IMG/VR virus record: IMGVR_UViG_3300021197_001468
Coordinates: 1-64,000 of that record
Direction: 5' to 3' (one strand)
Origin: a virus
Length of the DNA: 64,000 nucleotides
The notes below the pieces were generated by a model. That model was not told the DNA's origin and did not search any database. It saw only the letters and a program-made list of their open reading frames with translations. Below are positions 17,654-51,889 of this stretch, piece after piece. Every line of letters begins with the position of its first letter. Position 1 is the stretch's first letter. Made by a program: the position numbers and the translations under genes.

Positions 17654-17682
17654 TTGACTCCGCGAGTGATACCGTGATAGCA
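17654..17682 (+). promoter_or_regulatory. Possible divergent promoter between head operons
   Basis: On plus, TTGACT, a 17-base spacer and ATAGCA lie in the 45-base gap between divergent head genes. The -10 is poor and touches the first possible terminase ATG, so either transcription is leaderless or the true terminase start is the ATG at 17763. On minus, TTCGTG, 17 bases and TATCAC could serve the 73-aa gene. Confidence 0.35.
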
Positions 17683-28262: not shown

Positions 28263-28534
28263 CTTCGTCGTTCGAGTCTCGAGCCTCAAGCCGCAGGCTC
28301 TTGGTCACCGGTCAAACCCGGCGGCCCGCGACGTCCGGAGCAGTCCGCCACCGGTTGAACCCCGGTGCATGGTGTCCGGTAGCAGTCCGGGACCGGGCTC
28401 GGCCGGGTACGCGTCCGGCCCGGTAGCAGTCCCGATCGGTGTCCGGGGCCCGGACTCGTCACCCAGGAGGACCCCGAACGAGAGCGCCCCGACCAGCCGG
28501 AGCCGATCGGGGCGAGGGAGCGCGGGCGCTGGCG
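28263..28534. repeat. Gene-free region with TAGCAGTCC repeat cluster A
   Basis: GTCCGGTAGCAGTCCGG at 28374-28390, TAGCAGTCC again at 28424-28432 and a variant GTCCGGAGCAGTCCG at 28333-28347, in a background of GTCCGG words. CGCCCCGA (28485) and TCGGGGCG (28507) can form a stem-loop that would lie downstream of the minus 106-aa gene. No promoter or gene seen. Confidence 0.7.
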
Positions 28535-28855
28535 TCAGCCGGACTTGTAGTCTTCCCGATCAGCTTCCCACAGCATCTCCATTAGAGGCGTCTCGTTCCG
28601 CGCCCGGCGCAACCACGCCCGGCCCTCGGGCGTCAGCGTGGTGTTCCAATGGCCCCCGTTGTTGTCGAACTGCTGGAAGTCCGCGAGTCTCACGGGCTCC
28701 TCGTTGGCGTGCATCTCGAAGCACTCCAGGGCCCACGCGAGCGGGCTGTCAGTCGCCGCGTCGTTGATCTCCGCCGCGATGAGTTCGCGGCGGTTCCAGG
28801 TCCTCCGTCCGCGCGCCTCGTGAGCGCGCTGGCGGGGGGTGTTGTACCGATTCAT
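28535..28855 (-). CDS. 106-aa protein, unknown
   Basis: GGAGAAG lies six bases before the ATG at 28855. The N-terminus is basic (TPRQRAHEARGRRTWNRREL), the middle helical and acidic (SPLAWALECFEMHANEEPVR), and the C-terminal part (LTPEGRAWLRRARNETPLME) resembles the last helix-wing of small winged-helix proteins. A DNA-binding role is possible. It stands alone between two repeat clusters. Confidence 0.65.
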   Translation of the reverse strand: MNRYNTPRQRAHEARGRRTWNRRELIAAEINDAATDSPLAWALECFEMHANEEPVRLADFQQFDNNGGHWNTTLTPEGRAWLRRARNETPLMEMLWEADREDYKSG

Positions 28856-29128
28856 GTCACTTCTCCTGTGGCCGGCGTCCGTTGCCGGTGCCCCAACATA
28901 CCACGGTGGAATCCTTAGCTGGAATCCTTAGCTGGAATTCCAGCTTGAACTCGAACTCGAACTCCCGAACTCGAACTCGAACTCGAACTCGAACTCGTCG
29001 CCCAGGAGGAGGACCCAGGCCGCCGCCGGTCCCGGTCCCACGCTCGCCGGTCCGGTGTCCGGTAGCAGTCCGGTCCGGTAGCAGTCCGGTGTCCGGTCCG
29101 GGCGTAGCAGTCCGGTCCCGAACGCAAG
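28856..29128. repeat. Gene-free region with GAACTC array and repeat cluster B
   Basis: GGAATCCTTAGCT is present twice in tandem (28908-28933). GAACTC follows eight times in two blocks (three copies 28947-28964, CC, five copies 28967-28996). Then comes repeat cluster B: GTCCGGTAGCAGTCCGG at 29057-29073 and 29073-29089, sharing one base, and TAGCAGTCC at 29105-29113. No gene is convincing in it. Confidence 0.8.
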
Positions 29129-29155
29129 CGACCCCGTCCGGGTGGGACGGGGTCG
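29129..29155 (-). terminator. Perfect stem-loop downstream of the DUF932 gene pair
   Basis: CGACCCCGTCC and GGACGGGGTCG form an 11-bp perfect stem with a five-base loop, seven bases after the stop of the 22-aa gene on minus. No U-run follows. Likely transcript end. Confidence 0.75.
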
Positions 29156-29161
29156 CGGGGA

Positions 29162-29230
29162 TCAGGATGCGAGGGCCACGATAGCCAGGAGGAGAGCGGC
29201 CAGGGCGACCCAACCCCGGGCCGCCTTCAC
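29162..29230 (-). CDS. 22-aa single-span membrane peptide
   Basis: Reads MKAARGWVALAALLLAIVAL then AS and stop. The GTG start overlaps the DUF932-type gene stop (GTGA). One hydrophobic helix with an N-terminal Lys/Arg patch. It is just upstream of a strong stem-loop. It is too short for certainty, but the overlap, the membrane pattern and the terminator all fit a coupled micro-protein. Confidence 0.5.
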   Translation of the reverse strand: MKAARGWVALAALLLAIVALAS

Positions 29231-30669
29231 GCCTCTGCGCGCGTGGCCATGGCCAGGGCAAATGCCCCAGCCGCGCGCTCCGCCCGGTCCCGCTGGATAG
29301 CGTCCAGGAGACCATGACTCGCAGCGCGGGACACGGCGTTGACCACGTCCGCGACACGATCCCCACCCTCGAACGCGTACCCCTTGAGGAGCATCTCGAC
29401 CGACACATCCCGGGCCGCTTGCTTATCCAGGCTGGCGAGGATCTTGTGCGCGTCCGTCATGGCCTGGACGGGCGACTCCATGTCCACCACGTCTGCCGCG
29501 GACGTGGAACGCAGGACGCCCCACCGGTCCAGGAAGTACCCCGCCGCCTGCTCTACGCCCTGCGCGGTCTGCAGGACGTCCTGCCGGACACGCTCCAGGC
29601 CAGCGGCCCGTGCCGCTGCGGCGCTGCGCACCCGACTACCCCGGTGCCGACGGTTGACCCCGTCGGCGATCCAGTCGGCAACCGTGCAGTTAATGCAGAT
29701 CACCCGCTGGAAGGAGAGGCCCCCGTGGTGCGCGGAGTTTCCGGTGTCGCCGGACCTCCCCTTGATCCCGACTTCGAACACATCGCCGACCCCCGCATCA
29801 AACGTCTGCGGGGCATGCCACGTGGCACTCCAGGTCGCGAGCGTGGTCGCCGGGTTGTAGTCCACGGACCCGCGCGCATCGGGGAGGCGATCGGCGTAGT
29901 CCTCGAAGATCGCGGTGTACTCCTCCAGGATGCTATCCACGGGCATGTCCAGATAGGACATGCTCATGGCGCGGTAGATCTGGGGTCGCCCGTCGATCGT
30001 GCGGGTGCCGACGTTGACCAGGCGGGCCTTCTCGTCGTACCCGAACCGCTCCAGATTCTGGATCTGACGGTTGAACACGTCGGCGCGCACGTCGGGATCG
30101 AGGGCCTGGAGGAGGGCCCGCGACGACGGGAACGCCGGGCGCTTGGGATCGGCGGAGCTATTGAACCGGCTGATCAGGGAGTAGAACGCGCCGGGCTCGA
30201 TAGGGAAGCCACCGGACGACGACTTCCCTTCGGTGTAGATGCGTCCGTCTTCAGTCATGCGGAGCCGGGCCGCATCGACCGCGAAGGACTTACGATCTTC
30301 GCGCCGGATCGCCTTGATCACCGGCGCGAACGCCTCGCGGATGGGCGGAAGGTCCTCGTGGAGGGCTGCCTTCGTGCGGAAGGTATCCTTCCCGATCTGC
30401 AACATCTCGGTACCGGCGTCGAACCACGTGTCGGGGATCTTCGCGGCCCACCCATTCGACTCCAGGAACGCGACGTCCTCGGAGATGCGGGCCGCCCGGT
30501 CGGGGTCGACCGTGCCAGCCTTGACGGTAGCGGGGGGCTTCGGGGGCGGAGCGCTGGGGTACCGGTCGCCGGTCATCTCCTCCAGCGTGCGTGTGTCGAC
30601 GCCTGCGGCGAATGCCGCCGCGTAGTCGGGGTAGGTGTTGCCAGTGGCGGGATCAAGGTAGCGAGTCAT
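29227..30669 (-). CDS. DUF932-type phage/plasmid protein (480 aa)
   Basis: The middle segment (SAHHGGLSFQRVICINCTVA, DWIADGVNRRHRGS) matches the 'GG..y.R.vCtNg......' core of DUF932 proteins, which occur on phages and plasmids; their function is unknown. The N-terminus has a Pro-rich stretch (APPPKPPATVKAGT). Repeated short motifs YRAMSMSYLDM and LATWSATWHAPQ are beta-rich. It is encoded alone on minus between two TAGCAGTCC repeat clusters, with a 22-aa membrane peptide coupled at its end. Upstream is AGAAGAG before the ATG. Confidence 0.78.
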   Translation of the reverse strand: MTRYLDPATGNTYPDYAAAFAAGVDTRTLEEMTGDRYPSAPPPKPPATVKAGTVDPDRAARISEDVAFLESNGWAAKIPDTWFDAGTEMLQIGKDTFRTKAALHEDLPPIREAFAPVIKAIRREDRKSFAVDAARLRMTEDGRIYTEGKSSSGGFPIEPGAFYSLISRFNSSADPKRPAFPSSRALLQALDPDVRADVFNRQIQNLERFGYDEKARLVNVGTRTIDGRPQIYRAMSMSYLDMPVDSILEEYTAIFEDYADRLPDARGSVDYNPATTLATWSATWHAPQTFDAGVGDVFEVGIKGRSGDTGNSAHHGGLSFQRVICINCTVADWIADGVNRRHRGSRVRSAAAARAAGLERVRQDVLQTAQGVEQAAGYFLDRWGVLRSTSAADVVDMESPVQAMTDAHKILASLDKQAARDVSVEMLLKGYAFEGGDRVADVVNAVSRAASHGLLDAIQRDRAERAAGAFALAMATRAEA

Positions 30670-31084
30670 TCTCTTCTCACGGTTGCGCCCGCGGGTGAAC
30701 CCCGGGGGCCCGACTACCCTACCAAGGCGGTAGGACGGTGTCCAGCGTATCTGAGCAAAAAGTTAGAACCGCCCGCGGCGTAGCCGCGCCACGAGCTACC
30801 GGAACACGCCGGTCGACTCCGCCGGTAGCTCGTGTCCGGCGGGTGTCCGGTGGTAGCAGCCCCGGTAACCCCGTCCGGTGGTAGCAGTCCGGCGGCCTAC
30901 GTCCGGCCGTAGCAGTCCGGTAGCAGCCCCGGTAACCGGCCCACCGGTTAGAGCGTCCGGGGGTAGCAGTCCGGTTAACCACGTCCGGAGCTAAGATTCT
31001 TACCCGGATCGGTTGACAGTCTGATACCGCTCCGGTATGGTGTGGATGCGCCGGGCGGATCCGGTGCAAAGGAGAAGAGAAGCA
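30670..31084. repeat. Gene-free region with repeat cluster C
   Basis: TAGCAGTCC at 30882, 30910 and 30964, and TAGCAGCCCCGGTAAC twice (30854 and 30921). GTCCGG words lie between them at 30845, 30873, 30901, 30955 and 30983. GGTTAACC and ACCGGT palindromic words occur in the same stretch. The end of the region carries a sigma-70-type promoter at 31013-31041. The dense repeats directly upstream of a promoter could be operators. Confidence 0.75.
31013..31041 (+). promoter_or_regulatory. Sigma-70-type promoter of the Gp88-like gene
   Basis: TTGACA, exactly 17 bases, TATGGT. Predicted transcription start is near 31048, then GGAGAAGAGAAGCA before the ATG at 31085. Three TAGCAGTCC/CCC copies lie within 110 bases upstream. 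Confidence 0.8.
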
Positions 31085-31720
31085 ATGGCAATGACACTCA
31101 AGGAAGCGAAGACGATCACCGGGCACAAGTCGGGGCTGGGTAAGCCGAGCAAAATGCCCGGATACAGCACGGCGATCCCGGCGTCCGCGTGTCGGACCGG
31201 TGCGAAGCTTGCGAAGATCCCGGGTAGCGTGTGCGCTAACTGCTACGCTCTGAGAGGAAACTACCTGTACACGTCCGTCAAGGAGGGACTGCAGCGCCGC
31301 ATGGAAGCGCTGGACAATCCCCGGTGGGTCGACGGTATGGTGCGTCTCGTGGCGCACTACACCGATCCTAACGATCCGCATTTCCGGGTACACGATAGCG
31401 GAGATCTGCAGTCCCGATCCCATCTGGACAAATGGGTCGCGGTCGCGCGCCGCGTTCCGGAGGTGAAGATCTGGATGCCGTCTCGCGAGATAAGAGACGT
31501 CAAGGCAGCGATGCGTGAGGTTAGCGAATGGCCTGCTAACCTCGTGATCCGGTTGAGCGCCCCGATGATCGGGCGCGCGCTCGACATCTCGGGCCCGACG
31601 TCAAGCGTCGACGCGGGCACGGGCCACCGTTGTCCCGCCCCGGCGCAGGGTAACGAATGCGGCGACTGCCGCGCATGTTGGGACCCCGAGGTCGCCAACG
31701 TCGACTATCACAAGCACTGA
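31085..31720 (+). CDS. Gp88-like phage protein (211 aa)
   Basis: The sequence SKMPGYSTAIPASACRTGAK, LAKIPGSVCANCYALRGNYL and FRVHDSGDLQSRSHLDKWVA matches the phage 'gene product 88' family pattern ('kt..fS.p...C.....C...CYA......R.h..GD'). The paired Cys residues (CRTG, CANCYA, CPAP, CGDCRACW) suggest a metal or iron-sulphur centre; the catalytic function is unproven. I start at the ATG after GGAGAAGAG; earlier in-frame ATGs lie in the promoter. The next gene overlaps its stop by one base. Confidence 0.8.
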   Translation: MAMTLKEAKTITGHKSGLGKPSKMPGYSTAIPASACRTGAKLAKIPGSVCANCYALRGNYLYTSVKEGLQRRMEALDNPRWVDGMVRLVAHYTDPNDPHFRVHDSGDLQSRSHLDKWVAVARRVPEVKIWMPSREIRDVKAAMREVSEWPANLVIRLSAPMIGRALDISGPTSSVDAGTGHRCPAPAQGNECGDCRACWDPEVANVDYHKH

Positions 31721-32702: not shown

Positions 32703-33269
32703 TTAGTCTCCAAGGGTCTGAGAGCCGCCTGCGGCCACGATTCGGGCCAGTCGGTTGTCGAAGTCTACATCGACTGAGACGGCTGCGAGCGTGCTGGAGG
32801 CCCCAGGAGCCTCTGGAGTGATGCCAGAGCGCTCCAGGAGCGTCTCAGCGGCCTTAATCCGCTCCTTCGGGGGCACCGCGGGGTCGTTCATGAGCATCGA
32901 GAGCACCTGGAGCGCATCGTTGGCGGCCGATTGCAGCCCATGTCCGAGCGCTTCTCGCCTCCGCTCGACCCCTGCAGCGATAGCCTCACGAACCTTAGGC
33001 TCCTTGCTCAGGTCATACACCGCACCTGGGTGCAGCTTCAGCCTGCTCGCCGTCTCAGCCGGCGTGTACCCCGCACCCAGCAACTGCACGCACATGGCCC
33101 GCACCTCGCCAGACGCCGCGAACTTAGCCCTGCTGCGCATAATGCTAAGCGTCTCCCGCTCAGCCGCAGGCGTCACCTGGACAGTAGGCAGCGTCACGAT
33201 CGACGTAGCCCCTGGGTGCTGCTCTGGATCGGTAGCCGTCGAATCTGGGTCTGTATGAGCATCGCTCAT
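32703..33269 (-). CDS. Terminase small subunit-like HTH protein (188 aa)
   Basis: Residues about 60-95 hold a helix-turn-helix (MCVQLLGAGYTPAETASRLK, LHPGAVYDLSKEPKVREAI). It is followed by a helical domain (QSAANDALQVLSMLMNDPAV, PPKERIKAAETLLERSG) typical of phage small terminases and related HTH proteins, where this part oligomerises. A small terminase recognises the packaging site and presents DNA to TerL. The gene lies 13 kb from large terminase and next to the GCTACA-rich island, a possible target. Alternatively it could be a transcription regulator. Confidence 0.7.
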   Translation of the reverse strand: MSDAHTDPDSTATDPEQHPGATSIVTLPTVQVTPAAERETLSIMRSRAKFAASGEVRAMCVQLLGAGYTPAETASRLKLHPGAVYDLSKEPKVREAIAAGVERRREALGHGLQSAANDALQVLSMLMNDPAVPPKERIKAAETLLERSGITPEAPGASSTLAAVSVDVDFDNRLARIVAAGGSQTLGD

Positions 33270-33941
33270 GGTCTCACCTCGTCGTATTAGTTCTGCTCAC
33301 CCTGCTACACTTTCACCGCTCTCGACAACGACGTGCTACAGGGCCATCTCACCAATGCTACACAGCGCTACATGCACAGAAGCAGTGAGAACAAGCTCCC
33401 ACAGGGCATTCAACACCCCTCTGCTACACTTTTTAAAGATACTACCTTATATGATCTATAAGAGACTCACATAACTCCAATAGCTCATGGGCCTGGGGCC
33501 TGGGGCCTGGAGCACAAGTAGAGCCATCGAGTAGAGCGATCAAGCAGAGCTATTTACTCTGGCCCCTTATGTGCTTCATAACTGACTGAAGCAGCCAAAA
33601 GTGTAGCAACCGTACGTCAAGTCCCGCGCTGCTCGGGCTTATGGCTGCTTCTGTATATGTAGCGCACTGTAGCTTAACCACAGCGGCATAGGCTGACTGT
33701 CCGCAACCAGGGGGCACACGCGTCCCAGGGCCATACCGCAGCGGTGGAATGTAGCAGAGGACACAGGGGCTATGACAGTACGGTATAAAATGTCAACTGC
33801 GACAACGCCGTGCTCATGGGCCATCTCGACAACGCCTCAAAATACTTTGACCAACACGGTGGACAACCCCTGCTACACTTTGTATAAGTAATGGGCCAGT
33901 CGGGGTTGCACTTGAGCGCCCCGCGACCAGGAGAGAGTGAG
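33270..33941. other. Gene-poor island rich in GCTACA/TGTAGC words
   Basis: 672 bases without a credible gene and visibly richer in A/T than the rest. TGCTACACTTT occurs at 33303, 33422 and 33871 and inverted (AAAGTGTAGCA) at 33598. GCTACA/TGTAGC occurs ten times between 33303 and 33876. A longer direct repeat (GACAACG-CGTGCT, then GGGCCATCTC) lies at 33324-33350 and 33801-33828. GGGGCCTGGGGCCTGG lies at 33494. This could be a packaging or replication site or a multi-operator control region. Confidence 0.7.
33860..33888 (+). promoter_or_regulatory. Promoter with TGCTACACTTT in its spacer
   Basis: TGGACA (33860-33865), 17 bases, TATAAG (33883-33888). The recurring 11-mer TGCTACACTTT occupies 33871-33881, inside the spacer, where a bound repressor would block RNA polymerase. 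Transcription would start near 33895 and serve the 75-aa gene at 33942 and the coupled genes after it. Confidence 0.65.
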
Positions 33942-34169
33942 ATGAAAAGAGCGACCGTACACCTCGGGGCGGTGACCGTCACGGGGAAGGAGCAGGAGAT
34001 CCTGACCTCCCTCTGGCACGCCGGGGCCCTGCCCAACACGGGGTGCCGGGCGTCGGTGCCGTCCCGTTACCGCTCGCGGCTGGAGGACGCCGGCCTCGTC
34101 GACCTCGAAGCACACGCCGGTAGGTTGACCTACCGCGGCGCGCTCGTCGTCATGGCGCTGCACAGATGA
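33942..34169 (+). CDS. 75-aa winged-helix-like small protein
   Basis: AGGAGAGAG lies just upstream of the ATG. The sequence VTGKEQEILTSLWHAGALPN, then PSRYRSRLEDAGLVDLEAHA and GRLTYRGALVVM, has the shape of a minimal winged helix: a helix, a recognition-like helix rich in Arg, a 'GLV' turn, then a strand wing. A DNA-binding regulator is likely. Its own promoter contains the repeated 11-mer, so it may regulate itself. Stop and next start overlap (ATGA). Confidence 0.7.
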   Translation: MKRATVHLGAVTVTGKEQEILTSLWHAGALPNTGCRASVPSRYRSRLEDAGLVDLEAHAGRLTYRGALVVMALHR

Positions 34170-36080: not shown

Positions 36081-36844
36081 GTAACAAGATCATCGACCGA
36101 GTCCGCAAGCTCCTGGCCCTGGCTGAGGGCAGCAGCGGCCACGAGGCTGAGACCGCAGCCGCCATGGCGCGACGCCTCATGCGGGAGCACGCCGTCTCGA
36201 TGGAGTCCGTCGAGGCGAGCGACCGTCCGACCGACCCGCTGGTCAAGGTCCACGTCGTGTTCCGCGGGTTGACCCTGAGCCGAGACCTGACCTCCAGCCG
36301 CCCTGCGCGCACTGCGTGGTGGAAGCGCGAACTGGCGTCGGCCGTGGGCCGCTACCTCGACCTGCGCAACGCGTACTCCAAGGGCTCAAGCTCTTGGTTC
36401 TTCTACGGCTACCAGTCGGACGTCGAGGTCGCCCTCTACCTGTACGACGTCTGCGCTCGCCAGATCGACGTAGCGTGCAAGGCGTACCTCCGGGAAAAGA
36501 AGGAGTGCCACAGCTACTACTGGGACCGTGGCATGAGCCGCACGGCCAGCACTGAGTTCCGCCAGTCGGCGGTCGAAGGTCTCCGGACGAAGTTCCACGA
36601 TCTGAAGAAGACCGAGAAGACCGAAGACCCCGGTGGGTTCGCGCTCATGCTGAACCGCAAGAGCGCGGTCAACCAGTGGGTCGCGGACAACTTCAGTTTC
36701 GGTAGTTCCAAGAACTGGGGCGGCAGCGCCGGCTACAGTTCGGCTGGCTACACCGCAGGACGCAACGTCCGCCTCAACGCCGGGGTCTCCGGCGGCAACA
36801 GCAATCGTGGCAGCCTCAAGGCAGTCAAGGGATACCTCGCATGA
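36077..36844 (+). CDS. DUF2786-domain protein (255 aa)
   Basis: The N-terminus (DRVRKLLALAEGSSGHEAET, AAAMARRLMREHAV) matches the DUF2786 pattern 'i..KI.kLLALA.sp...EA..A...A..lm..h'. The central 130 residues match the conserved second half of the same phage proteins (YLDLRNAYSKGSSSWFFYGY, QSDVEVALYLYDVCARQIDV). The C-terminus is Gly/Ser/Asn-rich and flexible. Function unknown; such proteins occur near phage recombination or replication genes. CAGAAGAGAGAAGC precedes the ATG. Confidence 0.82.
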   Translation: MSNKIIDRVRKLLALAEGSSGHEAETAAAMARRLMREHAVSMESVEASDRPTDPLVKVHVVFRGLTLSRDLTSSRPARTAWWKRELASAVGRYLDLRNAYSKGSSSWFFYGYQSDVEVALYLYDVCARQIDVACKAYLREKKECHSYYWDRGMSRTASTEFRQSAVEGLRTKFHDLKKTEKTEDPGGFALMLNRKSAVNQWVADNFSFGSSKNWGGSAGYSSAGYTAGRNVRLNAGVSGGNSNRGSLKAVKGYLA

Positions 36845-37224
36845 GCAGCGACAAGAAGTACCGGGTCAAGATCAAGAAGCACATGGACCGCCAGCAGCGT
36901 GTTCTCATGGACTCCGTGGCAGACATGAGCGACATCCGCTCGCGCCTGGAAGAGGCCGGGGTGGACACCGAGTCCATCGTCAACCTCTTCTCCCAGGCGT
37001 ACGCGGTCGTGGGTATGCGCTACGACATCGACCCGCAGGAGCTCCTCCGCATGCTCACCTTCAACGGGCTCGGCCTGGGCATCATGAACGACAACCCGGA
37101 CATGACCCCGGACGAGCTTGCGCACGCTGTCGAGCGCGAGGTCAACGGAGAGCCCCCGCTCAACCGGTCGACCCCCGACCCGGACATGCCGCTCTTCCTG
37201 GCCCCTGGCGTCGGGGAGGCGTGA
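36841..37224 (+). CDS. 127-aa protein, unknown
   Basis: Basic N-terminus (DKKYRVKIKKHMDRQQRVLM), helical middle (DIRSRLEEAGVDTESIVNLF, SQAYAVVGMRYDIDPQELLR), and a C-terminal part with a DPD-type acidic patch. No family. It overlaps both the DUF2786 gene (ATGA) and the helicase start (TGATG), so it may be a helicase partner. Confidence 0.72.
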   Translation: MSSDKKYRVKIKKHMDRQQRVLMDSVADMSDIRSRLEEAGVDTESIVNLFSQAYAVVGMRYDIDPQELLRMLTFNGLGLGIMNDNPDMTPDELAHAVEREVNGEPPLNRSTPDPDMPLFLAPGVGEA

Positions 37225-39092
37225 TGTTCAACCAGCCGCACTTCGTCTACAGCATCCGCGGAAGCGGACAGGTGCTCACCGAGATCGAGAACCAGGTTCC
37301 TGGGTGTCTGCTCTACGGATACGCCGGGCGCAGGTTCCGCATCCGTACGGCGGAGGACGCCAGCCGGGCCAGCACCTTCGAGGTGGTGGCCCCGCTCAAC
37401 GCCGCGTTCCTGGTGGAGCACTACCTCATGTGGATGGGGTTGAAGTACCACGCCATCCCCAAGAAGGGGGCGGAGTCCGTCTTCTCCTGGGCGGAGGAGG
37501 ACCGCGCCACCATGGTCGCCCTGGGGGCCAGTCAGGTCCGGGGTCTGGTCGAGGCAGGAGAGATCAAGGAGCACGTCACCGACATGCTCACGGACTACCA
37601 GAAGCTCGGGGTGGGCTGGGTGCTGACCCGGCCCTGGTCGCTCAACGTCTGGGCCTGCGGGTCCGGCAAGACGCTGGGTGCCATCGTGTCCAGCCTGCAG
37701 GTCCCCGGCCCTGTCCTGGTCGTCTGCCCCGCCAAGGCGAGGCACGTCTGGTGGTCCCAGGTCCAGGAGTACACCAACGTCGAGCCCTACCGCGTGAAGC
37801 CCCAGGGCGACATGCGCAAGAGTGACGAGACCCTGGACGAGTATCTCCGCCGCATGAAGGCAGAGGCCCGGCGACCGTTCGTCATCATCGGGCTCGAGGC
37901 GCTCGCCGACTACCTCCCCGCAGCGCAGAAGGTAGACCCCGCGGTTCTTATCCTCGACGAGATCCACTACCACGGCAACAACCGTAGGTGGAAGGCGATC
38001 AACAACCCCGACGGCTCAGTGTCCTTCGAGACACGCCAGACCAAGAACGGCAACGAGGCCCGCGCGGTCTCGGTCATGACCGTCACCAAGCTCCCCAATC
38101 TGGTCAAGCGCATCGGGCTCACGGCCACACCACTCGACGACGGCAGACCCCGTCGACTGTGGAGCCAGCTCGACCTGCTCGCCCCGGGCTCATTCAGCTA
38201 CAGCTACAGAAGGTTCTCCCTCCGCTACTGCGGTGCCGTCATCAACCAGTATGGTGGGATGGACGACAAGGGCTCAAGCCACATGGACGAGCTCCGCGCA
38301 CGGTGCTCCTTCATGACACACGAGGTCCCGTATTCGGAGAGCCACTCGGAGCTTCCCTCTACTCGGGTACAGGTTGTGTATCTCGACAAAGGCGACTTGT
38401 CAGGGGCAGAACGGTGGTCTGATGAAGAAACTTATGGTCAGGCAGTCAAGCGAATCACGAAGCTCTCGCGCACCGACTTCACCCAGAAGGAGCGACTCGT
38501 CGAAGCCAGACTGGCGGACGCCTGTAGCCGCAAGCGACGCTACGTGGTGGACGAGGTCTGCCAGGGTGTCAGAGGCGGAGGCAAGGTCGTGGTCTTCGTC
38601 GCCCGTCGCCGCGAGTGTGAGAAGTGGACTGCGGCAGTCCGGAAGGCTCTGGGCACTGGAGACGAGCAGACTCCCGTGGATGTGTGGATGGCGCACGGCG
38701 GAGTCAGTGAGTCTGAGCGTGATCGCATCGCTGACTCCTTCCGTGAGCACGAAGGACCCTGCGTCCTGGTCGCGACTGGGCAGTCCGTGGGTACGGGGGT
38801 CGACGGCATGCAGACGGCGGACCTCGCCATCTTTGCTATGCTGCCGTGGAAGCCCGGAGACTTCGTCCAGTGGAAGGGTCGGTTCGACCGCCTCGGGGGT
38901 AGCCCGACGCTGCTCAAGGTGGTGGTTGCCAAGGCCACGTACGACGAGAAGGTGGTCGAGATACTCGTCGATAAGTTCGGTCCCATCGAGCAGTTCCTCA
39001 AGGCGGACGAGCTGGATGGCCTGGGCGAGAAGCTCATGGGGATTGAGGATCGTGAGGCTGTGATCTCGGGCTTCCTGGCCAAGCTCGGTTGA
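37224..39092 (+). CDS. SNF2-like superfamily 2 helicase (622 aa)
   Basis: The ATG at 37224 overlaps the previous stop. Motif I is ACGSGKT (about residues 144-150), preceded by a Q-like YQKLGVGW (about 125). Motif II is LDEIH (about 244-248), motif III IGLTATP (about 296-302), and motif VI WKGRFDRLG in the C-terminal lobe. A leading 110-residue domain (RIRTAEDASRAS, VVAPLNAAFLVEHYLMWMGL) resembles the N-terminus of other phage SNF2-type helicases. It uses ATP to move along duplex or branched DNA, probably in replication or recombination. A promoter for the nuclease gene begins at its last codons. Confidence 0.9.
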   Translation: MFNQPHFVYSIRGSGQVLTEIENQVPGCLLYGYAGRRFRIRTAEDASRASTFEVVAPLNAAFLVEHYLMWMGLKYHAIPKKGAESVFSWAEEDRATMVALGASQVRGLVEAGEIKEHVTDMLTDYQKLGVGWVLTRPWSLNVWACGSGKTLGAIVSSLQVPGPVLVVCPAKARHVWWSQVQEYTNVEPYRVKPQGDMRKSDETLDEYLRRMKAEARRPFVIIGLEALADYLPAAQKVDPAVLILDEIHYHGNNRRWKAINNPDGSVSFETRQTKNGNEARAVSVMTVTKLPNLVKRIGLTATPLDDGRPRRLWSQLDLLAPGSFSYSYRRFSLRYCGAVINQYGGMDDKGSSHMDELRARCSFMTHEVPYSESHSELPSTRVQVVYLDKGDLSGAERWSDEETYGQAVKRITKLSRTDFTQKERLVEARLADACSRKRRYVVDEVCQGVRGGGKVVVFVARRRECEKWTAAVRKALGTGDEQTPVDVWMAHGGVSESERDRIADSFREHEGPCVLVATGQSVGTGVDGMQTADLAIFAMLPWKPGDFVQWKGRFDRLGGSPTLLKVVVAKATYDEKVVEILVDKFGPIEQFLKADELDGLGEKLMGIEDREAVISGFLAKLG

Positions 39093-39117
39093 CAGATTAG
39101 CTCCGCCTCGGTATGAT
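39089..39117 (+). promoter_or_regulatory. Sigma-70-type promoter of the nuclease gene
   Basis: TTGACA, 17 bases, TATGAT, a near-consensus promoter that overlaps the helicase stop. Transcription would begin near 39124; CACACAGAGAGAGAC then leads into the ATG at 39140. Confidence 0.85.
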
Positions 39118-39139
39118 TACAAAGCACACAGAGAGAGAC

Positions 39140-40135
39140 ATGTCCGACATCCTGATTGACGCTGGCAGAAGCCGGCGTGGCTGGTCCCGTGTGGGTCAGT
39201 TCACCAAGTGCCCGCAGCTGTTCAGCTACACGAACAGGTTGGGTGTCTCGCTCATCCCCGCCTCCGCTCTGACGCGGGGGTCCATGGGCCACATCCTCCA
39301 GGCGCATCTTCATGCGATCTGGGGAGCCGAGCAGGGCGGTGTCTTGGTGGACACCGGCTACTACGATGACCCCTCCGTCTTCATGAAGCCGAAGGAAGCT
39401 GTGGTTGCGTGGTGCGATGCTAACGGCGGACACGAGTACATCGACCGCATGGTTGACGTGTTCATCGACTACGTCGCCCGACACCCTGAGCCCCCGGGTC
39501 GAGTGCTCGCTGTCGAGTGGCCCATGGACGCGGTCATCGGTGTCAAGTCCGGGGTGTGGGGCTTGTGGGTCATCGACCCCGACGAAGCCGAGAAGGTGCA
39601 CGAGCCCGCTGAGTCTCTGCTCGCTTACGACCGCACTCCGATCGAGGTCAGCCCGCTGAACATGCCGGGGCACCCGGACCACGGCAAGCCCATCTATGTC
39701 AGCCGTCGTTGCGACATGGTGGTCGAGGAGCCGGACGGACGCGTGTTCATCTGGGACCACAAGCACCAAGCTCGTGTGACCCAGGGTAAGTCCATCGAGG
39801 GCTACGCCATCGACGGGGGGTTCGCTCTCTTCCGTCACATGGGGCAGCAGGTCTACGGGGACGACTTCGGCGGGCTTAGGCTCAACCTCATCCAGACCAC
39901 GCGGCCGTACAAGATCGCTCGTCCCACTGTCCCGCGGACTCCGCACCGAGACACACACCTCGCCCAGCTCGTCTGGAACGCCGAGCACCAGATCGCATCC
40001 ATGGACATCAACATGCCCGACCTGTGGGCGTGGCCCAAGGCGATGCACGAGACTACCTGCGTCGGCCGCTACGGTACATGCGGCGGCATCAAGCTCTGCT
40101 TCTATGGTGAAGCGGGCAAGCGGTACCTCGCATGA
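39140..40135 (+). CDS. Cas4/RecB-like PD-(D/E)XK exonuclease (331 aa)
   Basis: The RecB-like nuclease core is visible: RGSMGH (about residues 46-51), RRCDMVVEEPDGRVFIWDHK (about 189-208; Asp192, Asp206 and Lys208 are the likely metal site), and a following Gln/Tyr motif (QGKSIEGYAIDGG). Cys24 (FTKCPQLF) and three C-terminal cysteines (TTCVGRYGTCGGIKLCF) form the four-cysteine iron-sulphur pattern of Cas4/AddB-type nucleases. It degrades DNA ends in recombination or replication. The earlier in-frame ATG at 39113 lies inside the -10, so 39140 is the start. The next gene overlaps (ATGA). Confidence 0.85.
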   Translation: MSDILIDAGRSRRGWSRVGQFTKCPQLFSYTNRLGVSLIPASALTRGSMGHILQAHLHAIWGAEQGGVLVDTGYYDDPSVFMKPKEAVVAWCDANGGHEYIDRMVDVFIDYVARHPEPPGRVLAVEWPMDAVIGVKSGVWGLWVIDPDEAEKVHEPAESLLAYDRTPIEVSPLNMPGHPDHGKPIYVSRRCDMVVEEPDGRVFIWDHKHQARVTQGKSIEGYAIDGGFALFRHMGQQVYGDDFGGLRLNLIQTTRPYKIARPTVPRTPHRDTHLAQLVWNAEHQIASMDINMPDLWAWPKAMHETTCVGRYGTCGGIKLCFYGEAGKRYLA

Positions 40136-40581
40136 GTCGCACCGCCGAGGAGTGGGGCCGCGTCGCTGTGGGGCTGCCTATGTGGCCCCACGGCACAGTT
40201 GCCAAGCGGCGTGGGGTAGTCGGATGGGTATCGGGCGTCGAGGCGTTGTCGCGCATGCTCCCGCCGGTCGACCGGCTCCGGGTGATCTTCGTCGCCGAGC
40301 TCGGGACGACGACGTTCTACCAAGTGGTCGCCCCCGGGGGCTACCCGCAGATTCGCATGGTCAACGGGCGGCACGAGTTCGTGCCCAACCCCGACGACCC
40401 CGCGACCGCTGGGTGCCTGCTGGCGCTGCTGGGGTCGGGCGTTCGCGTCTGGATGGATGGCGCAGACGACCTATGGACCGTCGAGGTGGGCGGGGTGCGC
40501 GCATCCATGCACGCTACTCTCGGGCGTGCGTGCATCGCCGCCGCCGCTGCCCTCGGGCGCTGGCCGGGGGGTGGGGCATGA
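40132..40581 (+). CDS. 149-aa protein, unknown
   Basis: Mixed alpha/beta (AEEWGRVAVGLPMWPHGTVA, DRLRVIFVAELGTTTFYQVV, SGVRVWMDGADDLWTVEVGG), ending in a helix with Gly. It looks like the group of small phage proteins of 'W.vGLPMWPHGtVak..' type without a known role. It overlaps both neighbours. Confidence 0.7.
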   Translation: MSRTAEEWGRVAVGLPMWPHGTVAKRRGVVGWVSGVEALSRMLPPVDRLRVIFVAELGTTTFYQVVAPGGYPQIRMVNGRHEFVPNPDDPATAGCLLALLGSGVRVWMDGADDLWTVEVGGVRASMHATLGRACIAAAAALGRWPGGGA

Positions 40582-40832
40582 ACTCCTATCTCTTCGTCGT
40601 CGGCGTCATCTTCGCCGGGCTCGCGGTAGCGCTGGCGTTGCTTGGCCTGCGGACAAACGCGCTCGAAGAAGCAGTCAACACTCAGATCCACCTGAGCAGC
40701 GGCAAGGCCAACTACCTGCCGGGAGCCGCTTGCGTCATCGCGACGTCGGCTGAGCAGACACCGGCCGACATCGTCAACTACGCCAGAGCATGCGCCAAGG
40801 CGCACGAAGACTGGCTCAAGGAGCAGCAGTGA
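40578..40832 (+). CDS. 84-aa protein with N-terminal membrane anchor
   Basis: One transmembrane helix (residues about 4-24: YLFVVGVIFAGLAVALALLG), then a soluble helical part with AACVIATSAEQTPADIVNYA and KAHEDWLKEQQ. Probably anchored in the inner membrane. No family. It is coupled to both neighbours by overlaps. Confidence 0.68.
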   Translation: MNSYLFVVGVIFAGLAVALALLGLRTNALEEAVNTQIHLSSGKANYLPGAACVIATSAEQTPADIVNYARACAKAHEDWLKEQQ

Positions 40833-41026
40833 TTTGGACCGACAGTCGGCGCGCCATGCCTCCGTCCGACGAAGAAGTGCTCATGTGGCAGCACGACACG
40901 TTCAACATCCTCTGCCTCAAGCAAGAAGACGATGGCGCGTGGCTCAACTACGAGTCGTGGCTTTCCCTGGCAGTCATCGGCCAGTTCTTCTGGCAGCCCC
41001 TCCCCAACCCCCCGGAGCAGCAGTGA
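40829..41026 (+). CDS. 65-aa small protein, DUF551-like
   Basis: GTG start overlapping the previous stop (GTGA). The pattern WTDSRRAMPPSDEEVLMWQH, then SWLSLAVIGQFFWQPLPNPP, resembles DUF551-type small phage proteins ('W......P..g..VL.........W.p.P.pP'). Function unknown. The stop overlaps the next start (GTGA). Confidence 0.68.
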   Translation: MIWTDSRRAMPPSDEEVLMWQHDTFNILCLKQEDDGAWLNYESWLSLAVIGQFFWQPLPNPPEQQ

Positions 41027-42012
41027 GCAGCCCACCCGCAGTCATGGCTACCGTCTTCGGTAAGCCCAAGCGCAAGAAGACCAGCGACGCGCTGGCCGCA
41101 TTCCCCAACGGCCTGTTCATCGGCGTGCCGTCGAGCCTCAAGCTCGTCGCACAGAACGAGCTCGGCTTCACGCCGCGGGTGTTCGAGACTCCACCCCAGA
41201 CGCTGCCCGACCTGCTGCACCTGCTTCACAGCGTGAGCCCCCAGGCGCACGAGTTCGGTGCCATCGTTGTGGACGACGCGAGCCACATCTGTCAGCAGTC
41301 CATGCTCCAGTGGCAGCAGGAGGCTCCCAAGGGCCGCAGCGGTAAGCCTGACCGGTTCTGGCCGTACCAGCAGCTACAGCAGTCTCTGCTCGAGCTGGCG
41401 GGCACTGCACGCTACCTGGGCGTCCACTTCGTGATGACGTTCCACGAGCGGGAGGGCGGGACGAACTCCATGGGTAACTTCACGCCCGGGGGTCCAGACC
41501 TGCCCAGCCGCAACCAGGTTGAGCGCATCCCCTCTTGGTGCGACATCAACGTCCGTTCGATCATCGACCCCGACTACCCGGACCCGTGGTTCAAGGGTGC
41601 CTACTACTGCAACCCCCACGACTCCGACTGGATCACGGGTGACCGCACCGGGGTCTGTACTCGCACCGAGCAAAACGCTCCAGCGAACCTGCGCGAGATC
41701 CTACGGGCCTCGAACAGCGGCTACGAGCTCCCCCGAATCGCCGGACTGGAATGGCAGGACGAGCTGGCCGACGAAGTGGCTCAGCGATTCGTTGACGGGG
41801 AGAACGTCGAGGACGTCGTCAAGGACGTCAACAAGTCGTGGACGGAGAAAAAAGTTCAGCCTCTGCACTTGCGCTGGGCGTGCCAGGATGGTATTGCTCG
41901 TGGAGTGCTGAGGATGCAGAGCAACCGAGGGTTGTTCGACTTCACAGCAAACAAGGAAGTGGGCGGCGCTTCAGCCCCGTCATTGCCCCCACCTCCTCCT
42001 TCAAGCACCTGA
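41023..42012 (+). CDS. Sak4-like RecA-fold ATPase, degenerate P-loop (329 aa)
   Basis: The expected Walker A site reads FGKPKRKKTSDALA (about residues 12-25): the usual Gly before Lys-Thr is Lys. The Walker B strand is GAIVVDDASHI (about 78-88), with two Asp. After it, SLLELAGTARYLGVHFVMTF fits a sensor strand. This is the layout of phage Sak4-type RecA-fold recombinases. An SSB-like gene follows, the usual partner. It would load on single-stranded DNA and pair it with homologous DNA. The C-terminal tail is Pro-rich (SAPSLPPPPPSST). GTG start coupled to the previous gene. Confidence 0.75.
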   Translation: MSSPPAVMATVFGKPKRKKTSDALAAFPNGLFIGVPSSLKLVAQNELGFTPRVFETPPQTLPDLLHLLHSVSPQAHEFGAIVVDDASHICQQSMLQWQQEAPKGRSGKPDRFWPYQQLQQSLLELAGTARYLGVHFVMTFHEREGGTNSMGNFTPGGPDLPSRNQVERIPSWCDINVRSIIDPDYPDPWFKGAYYCNPHDSDWITGDRTGVCTRTEQNAPANLREILRASNSGYELPRIAGLEWQDELADEVAQRFVDGENVEDVVKDVNKSWTEKKVQPLHLRWACQDGIARGVLRMQSNRGLFDFTANKEVGGASAPSLPPPPPSST

Positions 42013-42033
42013 CGGGCACACAGAGAGATCCTC

Positions 42034-42636
42034 ATGGCTACGTTCATGATTCCCGGCGACGCTATCACCAGCGTCTCCTCCCTCGGCGCTTCGGCCCCCG
42101 AGACTGGCTACTACAAGGCGAAGGTCACGGGTGTCGTCAAGCACCCCACTCGCGCGACCTCCCGTAAGATGGAGATCCTCGTTGAGAACGGGTTCTCGAC
42201 GTTCAGCTGGCTCAACAGCCCGTACGACGAGAACGGCAACCTGCAGCCCGGCCTCCAGGACCGCCAGGTCCGCGGCATGCTCGGGGCCATCAAGTCGGTC
42301 TTCGAGTCGGCTGGCTACACCAACGACCAGATGGCGCAGGGCGTCACGGACGAGTGGCTGGTGGGCAAGGAGGTCTACCTCGAGTGGCACTCCGCCAAGG
42401 ACCTGGGTGCGCAGTACGGCGAGATTGCCGGATACCTGCGCCCCGCCACGTTCGAGGGCTTCAAGGCCAGCGGCACCAAGCCCGCCATCGCCCAGGCCAG
42501 CGCGCCCTCCAAGGCCGCTGTTCGCCCCGCTGCGCGCTCTGCTGCGCCCGTGCGGGCCGCTGCCCCGGCTCCGGTCTCCGCGCCGGTCCCCGGAGGCATC
42601 AGCCTGCCCCCGCCGCCCAGCAGCGTCGTCAACTGA
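42034..42636 (+). CDS. Single-stranded DNA-binding-like protein (200 aa)
   Basis: An N-terminal 140-residue beta domain (TGYYKAKVTGVVKHPTRATS, SRKMEILVENGFSTFSWLN, VYLEWHSAKDL) looks like an OB-fold that binds single-stranded DNA. It is followed by a flexible Ala/Pro tail and a short hydrophobic/acid end, as in phage SSB-like partners of Sak4. It is probably the partner of the ATPase just upstream. CAGAGAGATCCTC precedes the ATG. Confidence 0.68.
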   Translation: MATFMIPGDAITSVSSLGASAPETGYYKAKVTGVVKHPTRATSRKMEILVENGFSTFSWLNSPYDENGNLQPGLQDRQVRGMLGAIKSVFESAGYTNDQMAQGVTDEWLVGKEVYLEWHSAKDLGAQYGEIAGYLRPATFEGFKASGTKPAIAQASAPSKAAVRPAARSAAPVRAAAPAPVSAPVPGGISLPPPPSSVVN

Positions 42637-42643
42637 ACGCTCC

Positions 42644-42671
42644 GGTCCCGCTGGCTTCGGCTGGCGGGACC
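42644..42671 (+). terminator. UUCG stem-loop after the SSB-like gene
   Basis: GGTCCCGCTGGC and GCTGGCGGGACC form a 12-bp stem (two G-U) with a TTCG loop, between the SSB-like stop (42636) and the next ATG (42684). Confidence 0.75.
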
Positions 42672-42683
42672 ACTGGGGGTCCG

Positions 42684-42917
42684 ATGCAGAAGCCGATGTT
42701 CCCAGACATTGCGGGTGAGATGACACCCGACATGGTCCAGCCAGGTACGCGCTGGCAGCACCACGCGGGTAAGTTCTACCGCGTCATCCGAATCACGAAC
42801 AAGCACTCACAGCAGCAGGACAAGTTCCCGCTGACTGCGGTCTACGTGGACGAGCAGTGGCGGACTTGGTCTCGCCCCGTCAAGAGCTTCATCCGTAAGT
42901 TCAAGCTCGTAGACTGA
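42684..42917 (+). CDS. 77-aa DUF1653-like small protein
   Basis: GTRWQHHAGKFYRVIRITNK, then FPLTAVYVDEQWRTWSRPVK and SFIRKFKL follow the DUF1653-like pattern 'G..Y.H.kG..Y.v.......t....vvY......wvRp...F'. These are small, soluble and of unknown function. The ATG has GGGGGT five bases upstream. It is bracketed by a UUCG hairpin before and a long structured region after. Confidence 0.75.
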   Translation: MQKPMFPDIAGEMTPDMVQPGTRWQHHAGKFYRVIRITNKHSQQQDKFPLTAVYVDEQWRTWSRPVKSFIRKFKLVD

Positions 42918-42927
42918 CTCACACTAC

Positions 42928-43033
42928 AGCTCCCCCGCTGCCAGGGTTTGAGCGCGCGACTGCGCCTCTCCTGCACCGCGTGGACGCCGGCAAGCGAACC
43001 GGCACCCACCCCACCACGCACAGTGGGGGAGCT
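42928..43033 (+). ncRNA. Candidate structured RNA / leader (multi-branch fold)
   Basis: AGCTCCCCCGCTG (42928-42940) pairs over 13 positions with CAGTGGGGGAGCT (43021-43033), one G-U. Inside lie a GCGC/GCGC hairpin (42952-42965) and GCGTGG/CCACGC (42978-42983/43014-43019), the latter enclosing GCCGG/CCGGC (42986-42990/42999-43003). The long stem ends two bases before AGGAG of the next gene (ATG 43047). It may be a translational control leader. Inferred from pairing by eye only. Confidence 0.45.
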
Positions 43034-43046
43034 CCAGGAGAATCCA

Positions 43047-43445
43047 ATGGGCCGCAGGCGCACATGGACAATGGCTGAGCTACAGCAAGCCAAGAAGCGG
43101 GCTGAGTCTGGCGAGACCTGGGCGACCATCGCCGAGGACTTCGGGATTCAGCCGGGCACGGTTCGTAAGCAGGTAAGGACTCACCTGGGAGGAGTCCAGT
43201 CTCGAGCCCCTCGAATGGGTCCGCCCGAATACGTGAAGAAGATACGGGACGCGGTTGTGATTCGGAACACCGAGTTCGCCTCCTGGTCGATCATCGCGGA
43301 GAGGATTGACTGGCATGCATCCCGGCAAGCGCTGCGCAAAGCAGTAGACCGCTACGCGGAGATCCACGGCCTCACTGTCAAGAAGGGCTTCCCTGCGGAG
43401 CGGCGTACCAAGTGGGGAACCTCTGAGGGCGGCACCCATGATTGA
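43047..43445 (+). CDS. 132-aa protein with two HTH motifs
   Basis: Two helix-turn-helix segments are visible: TWATIAEDFGIQPGTVRKQV (about residues 24-43) and FASWSIIAERIDWHASRQAL (about 79-98). The N-terminus is basic (GRRRTWTMAELQQAKKRAES), as is the end. A sequence-specific DNA-binding regulator is likely. AGGAG lies six bases before the ATG. Its start sits just past a possible structured RNA, which might control it. Confidence 0.72.
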   Translation: MGRRRTWTMAELQQAKKRAESGETWATIAEDFGIQPGTVRKQVRTHLGGVQSRAPRMGPPEYVKKIRDAVVIRNTEFASWSIIAERIDWHASRQALRKAVDRYAEIHGLTVKKGFPAERRTKWGTSEGGTHD

Positions 43446-43767
43446 CCTCGACACCTTGGTTGAGGTCATGGCAGACCTGAACCCCCAGGCGTGGTTCCTC
43501 GAGCCGACTGAAATGTACAACCCGTGCATCATCGGGATCACGAAAAGCCCGGAAGACCACTGGCCTCGTCGGCGAGAGACCTGGGTCCTCATCTACGACG
43601 CGGAAAAGTGCATCGAAGCAATCGCGCACTCGATGCTCGAAGACGGGGAAGAACTGGTCGACGGAGAAGTGTACGAGGCCGCCGTGCAGTGGTTCGAGTT
43701 CAACACCAGCGGCGGTTGGGTGGGCGAGAACACGCCAGCTTTTAAGTACGTCGGGTGGGAAGAATGA
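43438..43767 (+). CDS. 109-aa acidic protein, unknown
   Basis: IDLDTLVEVMADLNPQAWFL, EPTEMYNPCIIGITKSPEDH, then ETWVLIYDAEKCIEAIAHSM and an acidic helix. Trp-rich and acidic; no family recognised. Its ATG overlaps the upstream stop and its stop overlaps the methylase start (ATGA), so it is co-translated with both. Confidence 0.7.
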   Translation: MIDLDTLVEVMADLNPQAWFLEPTEMYNPCIIGITKSPEDHWPRRRETWVLIYDAEKCIEAIAHSMLEDGEELVDGEVYEAAVQWFEFNTSGGWVGENTPAFKYVGWEE

Positions 43768-44354
43768 GCATCAACACTGACCGCGCGCAGCTAAGTAAGC
43801 TCACACAGTCCAGGGCTCCGACTACCCGCACGCTGGGTAAGGACGACTGGATGACCCCGGCGGCAATCTTCGATCCGGTACAGAGCATGTGCCAGTTCGA
43901 CCTGGATGCGTGCGCCACTGACGCGACTGCGGCGCGCGTCGCTCAGTTCATCGGGCCCGAGACAGACGCGCTCAGCGTGCGCTGGGCAGACCACGGTAAG
44001 CGCGTGTGGTGCAATCCGCCGTACGGCCGAGGCATCGACCGGTGGCTGGAGAAGGCGTCAAAGGCGTGCCTCGACGGGTGCGACTTGGTGGTCGTAATGA
44101 TCAATGCGAACACCGACACCAAGTACTGGCGAGCCTGGGTAGCGGACAACCCGAACTGCTTCGCGGTCGTGTTCATCCAGCCCCGAGTCAAGTTCGACAG
44201 ACCTGACGGAGAGAAGTCGCACCACGCCCCCAAGGGAAGCGCGCTGGTCTTCCTCACACCAGCCAAGCGGGAAGGACGAGCCCCCGTCCATCGCTACTGG
44301 AACTACGTCACTGAATCATTCAGCTACGCAATGCAGGACTTCATTCATGAGTGA
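43764..44354 (+). CDS. Phage Dam-type DNA adenine methyltransferase (196 aa)
   Basis: The catalytic NPPYG (VWCNPPYGRGIDRW, about residues 75-88) is present. The start (KDDWMTPAAIFDPVQSMCQF, DLDACATD) and VVVMINANTDTKYWRAWV match the small phage 'DNA N-6-adenine-methyltransferase' type. It transfers a methyl group from S-adenosylmethionine to adenine N6, protecting phage DNA or marking it. The recognition sequence cannot be read from the protein. It starts on the ATGA overlap; its end overlaps the polymerase gene by eight bases. Confidence 0.88.
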   Translation: MSINTDRAQLSKLTQSRAPTTRTLGKDDWMTPAAIFDPVQSMCQFDLDACATDATAARVAQFIGPETDALSVRWADHGKRVWCNPPYGRGIDRWLEKASKACLDGCDLVVVMINANTDTKYWRAWVADNPNCFAVVFIQPRVKFDRPDGEKSHHAPKGSALVFLTPAKREGRAPVHRYWNYVTESFSYAMQDFIHE

Positions 44355-47100: not shown

Positions 47101-47103
47101 GCC

Positions 47104-47132
47104 TTGACACCTTGGTAGAGCCCCCCTATATG
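47104..47132 (+). promoter_or_regulatory. Sigma-70-type promoter after the polymerase gene
   Basis: TTGACA, 17 bases, TATATG. Transcription would begin near 47139. ACAGGAGAAGG precedes the next ATG at 47158. It serves the 140-aa, ATPase and zinc-ribbon genes. Confidence 0.75.
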
Positions 47133-47157
47133 TAGAGGGCCACACAGGAGAAGGCCC

Positions 47158-47580
47158 ATGAACGAAGCACGCTGGTTCCTCGCCCACCGAAAGAGCGAGG
47201 ACCGCCTCGTCGAGAACTGGGTCGCTCAGTTGCGCGACACGGTACTCACTACCCCCGGCTGGAAGACTGTCGTCACCCCTGGCCGGGACGACTACAACCG
47301 GAAGGCCCGCGCGGTTGGCTCATGGGACGCTTGGTGTCTCGATGTCGCCAAGCGGACCGACTACCGCGGAGAGGCGACCTACCACGGCGTCATCTTCCCC
47401 TACGTCGGGGAGCTTGTCGTGGGACGAGCGACCTACCTCATCCTCATGAACTTCATCGGCCAGGGCAAGCACGTCTACGGCTGGGACGTCATGAGCGGTG
47501 GTCTGTACACCATCGACACCCTCGAAGTCCTCGACCCCGACGACTTCATGCAGCATGCTCAGATTCGGTTCAAGGAGTAA
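47158..47580 (+). CDS. 140-aa protein, unknown
   Basis: A helical N-terminus (EARWFLAHRKSEDRLVENWV) followed by a beta domain (WDAWCLDVAKRTDYRGEATY, VVGRATYLILMNFIGQGKHV, YTIDTLEVLDPDDF). Trp- and Tyr-rich, no family recognised. GGAGAAGG before the ATG. The ATPase gene starts two bases after its stop. Confidence 0.72.
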   Translation: MNEARWFLAHRKSEDRLVENWVAQLRDTVLTTPGWKTVVTPGRDDYNRKARAVGSWDAWCLDVAKRTDYRGEATYHGVIFPYVGELVVGRATYLILMNFIGQGKHVYGWDVMSGGLYTIDTLEVLDPDDFMQHAQIRFKE

Positions 47581-47582
47581 CC

Positions 47583-49115: not shown

Positions 49116-49348
49116 ACTGCCCCAAATGCGGATGCCGGACACGCGTGCGGGAGACGCGCCATCCGGATCACGCATCGAGCCTGACCAGCTCCTCCATCGC
49201 GGGGAAGGCTGAAGAGGCGGCAGGCTGGTACACTGCGGACTGGGTGGCGAGGTCACGCCACTGTACCAACAAGGTATGCGGTCAGCGCACTACGACGGTC
49301 GAATTGACGCTCGAAGATCTCGAGCGGGGATGGCAGCGGCGGGAGTGA
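49112..49348 (+). CDS. Ogr/NrdR-like zinc-ribbon protein (78 aa)
   Basis: CPKC at the start and CTNKVCG about 50 residues on form a four-cysteine zinc ribbon. 'MxCPxCG......R.C.n..CG...tt.E' is the pattern of phage Ogr/Delta late activators and NrdR-like ribbons. The C-terminus ends in LTLEDLERGWQRRE. It probably binds DNA or RNA polymerase to control transcription. GTG start overlaps the ATPase stop. A 9-bp stem-loop follows. Confidence 0.78.
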   Translation: MNCPKCGCRTRVRETRHPDHASSLTSSSIAGKAEEAAGWYTADWVARSRHCTNKVCGQRTTTVELTLEDLERGWQRRE

Positions 49349-49363
49349 AGTGCCTGTGCCTTA

Positions 49364-49393
49364 GTGCGCCGCTGTCCCCCGATGGCGGCGCAC
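49364..49393 (+). terminator. Stem-loop before the DUF927-type gene
   Basis: GTGCGCCGC and GCGGCGCAC pair over 9 bp with a 12-base loop, after the zinc-ribbon stop. CACACACAGAGAGACAC and the next ATG follow at 49430. Confidence 0.65.
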
Positions 49394-49429
49394 AGTGCTA
49401 CAAACGAGAAGCCACACACAGAGAGACAC

Positions 49430-51502: not shown

Positions 51503-51505
51503 TTC

Positions 51506-51534
51506 TTGCTATCTTGATACTATGACGCTATGGT
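51506..51534 (+). promoter_or_regulatory. Sigma-70-type promoter of the HTH/tail/lysis operon
   Basis: TTGCTA, 17 bases, TATGGT. Transcription would start near 51541. GGAG precedes the HTH ATG at 51557. It is the only good promoter seen ahead of the following ten-gene run. Confidence 0.7.
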
Positions 51535-51556
51535 GTAGGTGTTTATGGAGAATCCC

Positions 51557-51865: not shown

Positions 51866-51889
51866 TACGATTGCCCCGTGGAGGTCATC

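Follow-up and report, generated by a model that had tools for sequence, protein, structure and literature searches.

The island and its neighbouring genes

The window analyzed here is the whole stretch of 64,000 nucleotides taken from a 64,675-bp virus contig, which carries TerL (17682-19334), a portal/head-tail adaptor-like protein and a SNF2-type helicase. The gap at 33270-33941 holds no credible gene, in line with the gene-poor island proposed from reading the sequence; it is bounded by the start of a minus-strand gene at 33269 and by the next rightward gene having a ribosome-binding site at 33942. This latter gene (33942-34169, plus strand, start picked by the ribosome-binding site GGAGAGAG) opens the rightward operon that follows the island. 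The exact word search of the full record located ten GCTACA/TGTAGC words and four copies of TGCTACACTTT in the gap, precisely where the original prediction had put them. The TGCTACACTTT matches are at 33303, 33422 and 33871 on the plus strand and at 33598 on the minus strand, and no further exact copy was found in the 64,675-bp record outside these four sites. The GCTACA sites are at 33304, 33335, 33357, 33367, 33423 and 33872 (plus strand) and at 33602, 33658, 33668 and 33750 (minus strand). The longer direct repeat GACAACGMCGTGCT..GGGCCATCTC, which had also been predicted, was confirmed on the plus strand with its first copy at 33324-33350 (GACAACGACGTGCTACAGGGCCATCTC) and its second at 33801-33827 (GACAACGCCGTGCTCATGGGCCATCTC).

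The whole multi-site island, a putative replication origin as argued below, spans 33303-33881 and stands out by its site density. Dinucleotide shuffles gave 14.9 GCTACA sites per 64 kb, i.e. about 0.13 per 579 bp, and the 29 sites in the rest of the record correspond to an expectation of 0.26, so that ten sites are found against roughly 0.1-0.3 expected; the maximum in any other 579 bp of the record is three. It might be argued that the cluster is a product of chance or a functionless mutational repeat, an AT-rich patch in a GC-rich genome and nothing beyond this, but the probability of at least ten sites is about 4e-13 and the layout is conserved across divergent genomes which use different words. 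This reading is hardly credible. The Rfam search gave no match.

The minus-strand gene beside the island (32703-33269) encodes a protein of 188 aa. Its family profile matches the structures 7joq (2.5e-4) and 6w7t (0.01), which are small terminase subunits (TerS) of the PaP3 group (PMC7672466), and the predicted fold, of modest confidence (pLDDT 66), shows an N-terminal helix-turn-helix (HTH) followed by a long helical hairpin; Foldseek with this model returned no informative match. Judged by the profile matches and predicted helices the neighbour is the terminase small subunit, in agreement with the original prediction, and it is the rival candidate for binding of the island.

Further to the left, repeats of the form TCCGG(N)TAGCAGTCC occur in other gaps, in three stretches within 28375-30980 (at least eight units), and a GP88-family protein is encoded at 31037-31720 (Pfam PF17338, 5e-25). 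It had been suggested that the TAGCAGTCC repeats and the island share a binding protein. This is not supported, as the TAGCAGTCC units are all on the plus strand, GC-rich and without a mirror layout.

Mirror layout and weak DNA

Set against its reverse complement, the region proved to hold a mirror-image array centred at 33515.0, which the original prediction had missed. With a score of 47 it outranks every other extended dyad found by scanning the complete 64.7-kb record, the runner-up having a score of 24. Three opposed pairs of sites (33357/33668, 33367/33658 and 33423/33602) are base-exact about 33515, and for ten random sites the probability of three such pairs on one exact centre is about 8e-4. 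Exact mirroring in the window is thereby limited to three site pairs out of five; 33304, 33335, 33750 and 33872 are the sites that lack a base-exact partner. The surrounding bases form imperfect inverted copies, with 30-bp arms at 33356-33385 and 33645-33674 and shorter ones at 33422-33434 and 33596-33608.

From left to right, the array begins with L1 (TGCTACACTTT, 33303-33313, plus strand), which lacks an exact mirror partner, and L2 (TGCTACA, 33334-33340, plus strand), which lies within the first copy of the longer repeat. The left mirror arm (TGCTACACAGCGCTACATGCACAGAAGCAG, 33356-33385, plus strand) contains L3 (33357) and L4 (33367), 10 bp apart, and is followed by the inner left site L5 (TGCTACACTTTTT, 33422-33434, plus strand), whose mirror is the inner right site R5 (TGCTACACTTTT on the minus strand, 33596-33608). 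Between the two inner sites lie an AT-rich stretch (33428-33485), a GC-rich 7-bp tandem of three GGGCCTG units near the dyad centre (33490-33510) and, at the centre, three head-to-tail 13-mers, AGTAGAGCCATCG, AGTAGAGCGATCA and AGCAGAGCTATTT (33517-33555); the tandem and the 13-mers (33490-33555) were not seen in relatives. The right mirror arm (33645-33674, minus strand) contains R4 (33658) and R3 (33668), and the outer right site (TGCTACA on the minus strand, 33750-33756) misses by 29 bp the position that would mirror L1. The outermost site (TGCTACACTTT, 33871-33881, plus strand) stands directly before the early operon.

The AT-rich stretch is a putative unwinding element. Nearest-neighbour stability in 60-bp windows places the genome's stability minimum at 33456, beside the dyad centre, with a mean stacking energy of -1.149 as compared with -1.269 for the next genome window. 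GC skew shows no turn at the island.

The position of the outermost site raises the possibility of a master control region, in which a repressor or activator, for example the Cro/C1-type HTH protein of 108 aa encoded at 51539-51865 (plus strand; Pfam HTH_3 1.4e-10, synteny), a weaker rival candidate for binding, would act on repeated operators of the early operon. The TGCTACACTTT copy at 33871 adjoins the point where the rightward operon begins, the island heads a variable small-gene operon in all genomes where this was mapped, and homologues of the HTH_3 protein are present in 11 of the 11 genomes compared. By eye, the site at 33871 is flanked by TGGACA (about 33862) on one side and by TATAAG (about 33884) on the other, and TGCTACACTTT was therefore considered as a spacer operator or an extended -10 element of a promoter; this is plausible at 33871 only, and the promoter scan of the island reported none. 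Against such a control region, at least ten sites in a near-rigid mirror layout of 300 bp go far beyond what a promoter needs, and the words are nearly absent elsewhere, the gene region of the regulator itself included. Islands are also found between co-directional genes (G033, G038, G031 and G027), which a pure divergent operator does not fit. As a whole this explanation is quite improbable.

Islands in uncultured relatives

Many uncultured relatives were gathered from IMG/VR by TerL and TerS searches, and the search for cultured relatives gave none that is close. They carry islands of like design, usually one per genome, with words that drift among them (TGTAACAC, TGTAACCAC, TGYTACGAC, TGGTACAC). 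Islands upstream of terS were found in L140/G005, L124, L122/G035, L126, L132, L138/G042, L139/G043 and L141, where the words are TGYTACGAC, GTGTWACAC, TGTAACGAC, TGTAACCAC, TGTAACGC and TGGTACAC. Genome-wide scans of eleven long contigs further located one island each, away from terS, in G033, G038, G004 and G031, and the island of G027 (6100-6410) was found by reading the sequence. The island is the top cluster of TGNWAC in seven of these eleven, with 10-21 sites per 400 bp as against 4-6 in the next cluster.

The sites of G033, G038 and G035 lie at +/-60, 67, 109, 122 and 132 bp from the dyad centre, those of G004 and G005 are near the same positions, and those of the window are set wider (+/-90, 146 and 156). 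The layout is kept across the uncultured phage family though the words have changed. The weak DNA follows the same plan: for the window, G035, G043 and G042 the island contains the weakest DNA of the genome (rank 1), and it contains DNA of rank 2 in G033, 3 in G004, 3 in G031 and 7 in G038. In all eight genomes this weak DNA keeps to one and the same side, at a distance of about 55-73 bp from the centre (for G042 the offset was computed from the implied centre). G005 has a local stability minimum on this side which is outside the twelve weakest windows of its genome, and the island DNA of G027 is absent from the twelve weakest of its own.

On a first pass the GC-rich relatives appeared to have no island, a view overturned by the mapping of weak DNA, which led to related and more degenerate islands in G009 (about 165-345), G014 (about 42100-42440) and G023 (about 44480-44780); no convincing island was recognised in G013 and G016. 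A second near-palindrome, AGGTTCNACCT or close to it, recurs inside the islands of L122, L126, L138, L140, L141, G033, G038, G004 and G023 and was not seen in the island of the window. As a separate observation, CATAACCGCAGCGTCAAG or a close form is conserved just upstream of terS in the GC-rich relatives L079, L080, L082, L084, L085 and L087.

The shared-gene map bears on the suggestion that the island is a pac site, where TerS rings would sit on both mirror sets and TerL would cut between them. In phage P1, the pac site consists of two groups of repeated hexamers which flank the cut and lie near the terminase small-subunit gene, and the present island is similar in having repeated hexamers in two groups near terS. 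The identity of the neighbour as TerS is supported, terS directly adjoins the island in the window, G005, G035, G042 and G043, a spacing of 10-13 bp between sites would suit a ring of HTH domains, and the contig ends of some relatives overlap at different genome positions, which is compatible with circularly permuted DNA. Unlike in P1, however, the adjacency to terS is not conserved here and the array is symmetric, whereas packaging is one-directional. The island-terS distance is 3-12 kb in about half of the long relatives: terS lies several kb away, beyond the variable small-gene operon, in G033, G031, G027 and G004, and 2.9 kb or a few genes away in G038. The known pac of P22 is, in contrast, a short asymmetric sequence of 22 bp inside the terS gene (PMC9611059). 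Since islands occur far from terS and between co-directional genes, neither a terS neighbour nor divergent transcription is a defining trait of the island.

One relative, G020, differs in its iterons. No TGNWAC island was found in the 42 kb spanning its rep, terS and terL, and a mirror array of GGGCAGCG with an AT-rich core is found instead just upstream of rep (centre 8587; L181 8390-8760), holding within 300 bp seven of the 24 copies of GGGCAGC in the record. This array is likewise origin-like and represents a second type within the phage family. The helicase gene product Rep of G020 has diverged (31% identity over 383 aa), with DUF927 still present and no HTH_56 by Pfam, while its TerS and TerL are 47% and 69% identical. 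In this single case, the iteron type differs together with Rep and not with TerS, which is kept. The choice of pac on the basis of terS next door is weakened by this genome and by the islands far from terS, and we regard a pac site as unlikely. From the original list of pac site, origin or multi-site control region, it is the origin which is favoured.

Covariation across the family is less specific. The correlation of motif distance with protein distance in ten genomes is 0.44 for Rep, 0.53 for TerS and 0.57 for the very large protein, so Rep is not singled out, and G004 and G033 share the word TGTAACAC although their Reps differ by 47%. The very large protein is encoded by an open frame from 56909 of the window to 64447 of the record (minus strand), which codes for 2,512 aa when the full record is read. 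Its homologues occur in 11 of 11 genomes, and it has GNAT-like sequence by eye.

A candidate replication origin and its putative initiator

The putative initiator Rep is a DUF927 helicase of 712 aa (49364-51502, plus strand) with a C-terminal Cch-type HTH, and is the proposed binder of the island. Its Pfam matches to DUF927 (PF06048, 2.7e-36) and to HTH_56, the 'Cch helix turn helix' (PF18662, 5.4e-7), are both above cut-off. It matches PDB 8tch, a 'Pathogenicity island protein' (the Rep of a staphylococcal pathogenicity island), with an E-value of 4e-35 over residues 168-674, and Cch (PDB 5dgk) with 8e-16; the NCBIfam model SCCmet_Cch1 is matched at 1e-25 with a score of 90, far under its equivalog cut-off of 700. 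Homologues are present in 11 of 11 genomes compared. The genome also encodes a PolA-family DNA polymerase (44347-47100), whose N-terminal residues 34-98 resemble family-4 uracil-DNA glycosylase (NCBIfam Arch_udg, 8e-6) and which has a weak match to the aminoadenine polymerase DpoZ.

Based on these sequence comparisons, we consider it probable that the island is a phage replication origin of the SaPI/PICI-Rep type whose iterons are bound by the DUF927 initiator. This is supported by the array, its symmetry, its conservation at near-fixed spacing, the weak DNA, the finding that the helicase is a homologue of SaPI Rep, and a single relative whose Rep and iteron type differ together. The GCTACA words would act as iterons to which the helicase, a member of the SaPI-Rep/Cch class, may bind via its C-terminal HTH. 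The two mirror iteron sets would then seat initiator assemblies facing each other across the centre, the weak AT-rich stretch left of the centre would melt, the helicase would load on both strands and the phage polymerase would start synthesis, probably in both directions.

In the known origins of SaPIs and Gram-negative PICIs, an AT-rich stretch is enclosed by short iterons arranged as two sets (PMC6092414), and their initiators (Rep or Pri-Rep) are self-loading helicases of the DUF927/SaPIbov1-Rep class (PMC7581432). The island likewise has two iteron sets with the genome's weakest stretch between them, and a helicase of this class with a C-terminal DNA-binding domain is present. It differs from them in its words, its mirror image and its conserved spacing, and in being part of full-size phage genomes of 65-76 kb with their own polymerase and helicase. 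Unlike in SaPIs, the putative origin is not directly downstream of rep; the array of G020 alone is adjacent, and it is upstream of rep. In the nine relatives where both were mapped, the island follows the 3' end of rep at a distance of 3-12 kb, which would agree with the rep-ori order of SaPIs if genes had been inserted between the two. In the window the island is 16 kb upstream of rep, and the replication block (helicase to primase/helicase, 36807-52294) is inverted, relative to TerL, as compared with ten mapped relatives.

The Cch/Cch2 module of SCCmec is similar in that Rep of the window is homologous to Cch, and repeats in the putative origin of Cch2 are bound by the C-terminal domain (PMC7581432); unlike in the present island, the iterons of SCCmec (AAGTG) number only three and adjoin cch2. 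The origin of phage lambda also has iterons next to an AT-rich tract (PMC7466680); four of them (six in Stx phages) lie inside gene O, and the initiator, the O protein, is unrelated. The island resembles this in its iterons beside an AT-rich tract and departs from the lambda type in being intergenic and in having a DUF927 helicase as its candidate initiator. We know of no mirror set of iterons in the lambda origin.

A multi-site, symmetric element occurring once per genome could also be a partition site or another nucleoprotein site, such as a centromere-like site or a recombination enhancer, bound by some phage or host protein. However, neither ParA/ParB nor an integrase was noticed among the part of the proteins examined, and a search through 84,980 species genomes of bacteria and archaea confirmed no relative of TerL, which leaves no sign of an integrated form. 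A matching initiator, moreover, is present and explains the pattern, and a partition site is very unlikely.

For the replication origin, a more detailed arrangement is put forward tentatively, as a possibility that we hold to be rather doubtful. In this family of tailed phages, the mirror iteron scaffold may seat two MCM-like DUF927 hexamers head to head to give bidirectional forks, with the spacing under stronger selection than the words, and in genomes with terS beside the island the terminase may also read the scaffold. A single element could combine more than one role.

If this reading is right, a widespread uncultured phage family would gain an origin and a probable initiator, and a self-loading initiator of the SaPI/SCCmec type would also drive full-size phages. 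Genomes that keep the mirror spacing while their words change would then form a natural series from which to learn how such a helicase is positioned and whether two hexamers are loaded face to face, and the layout may be used for origin searches in other phages with DUF927 helicases.
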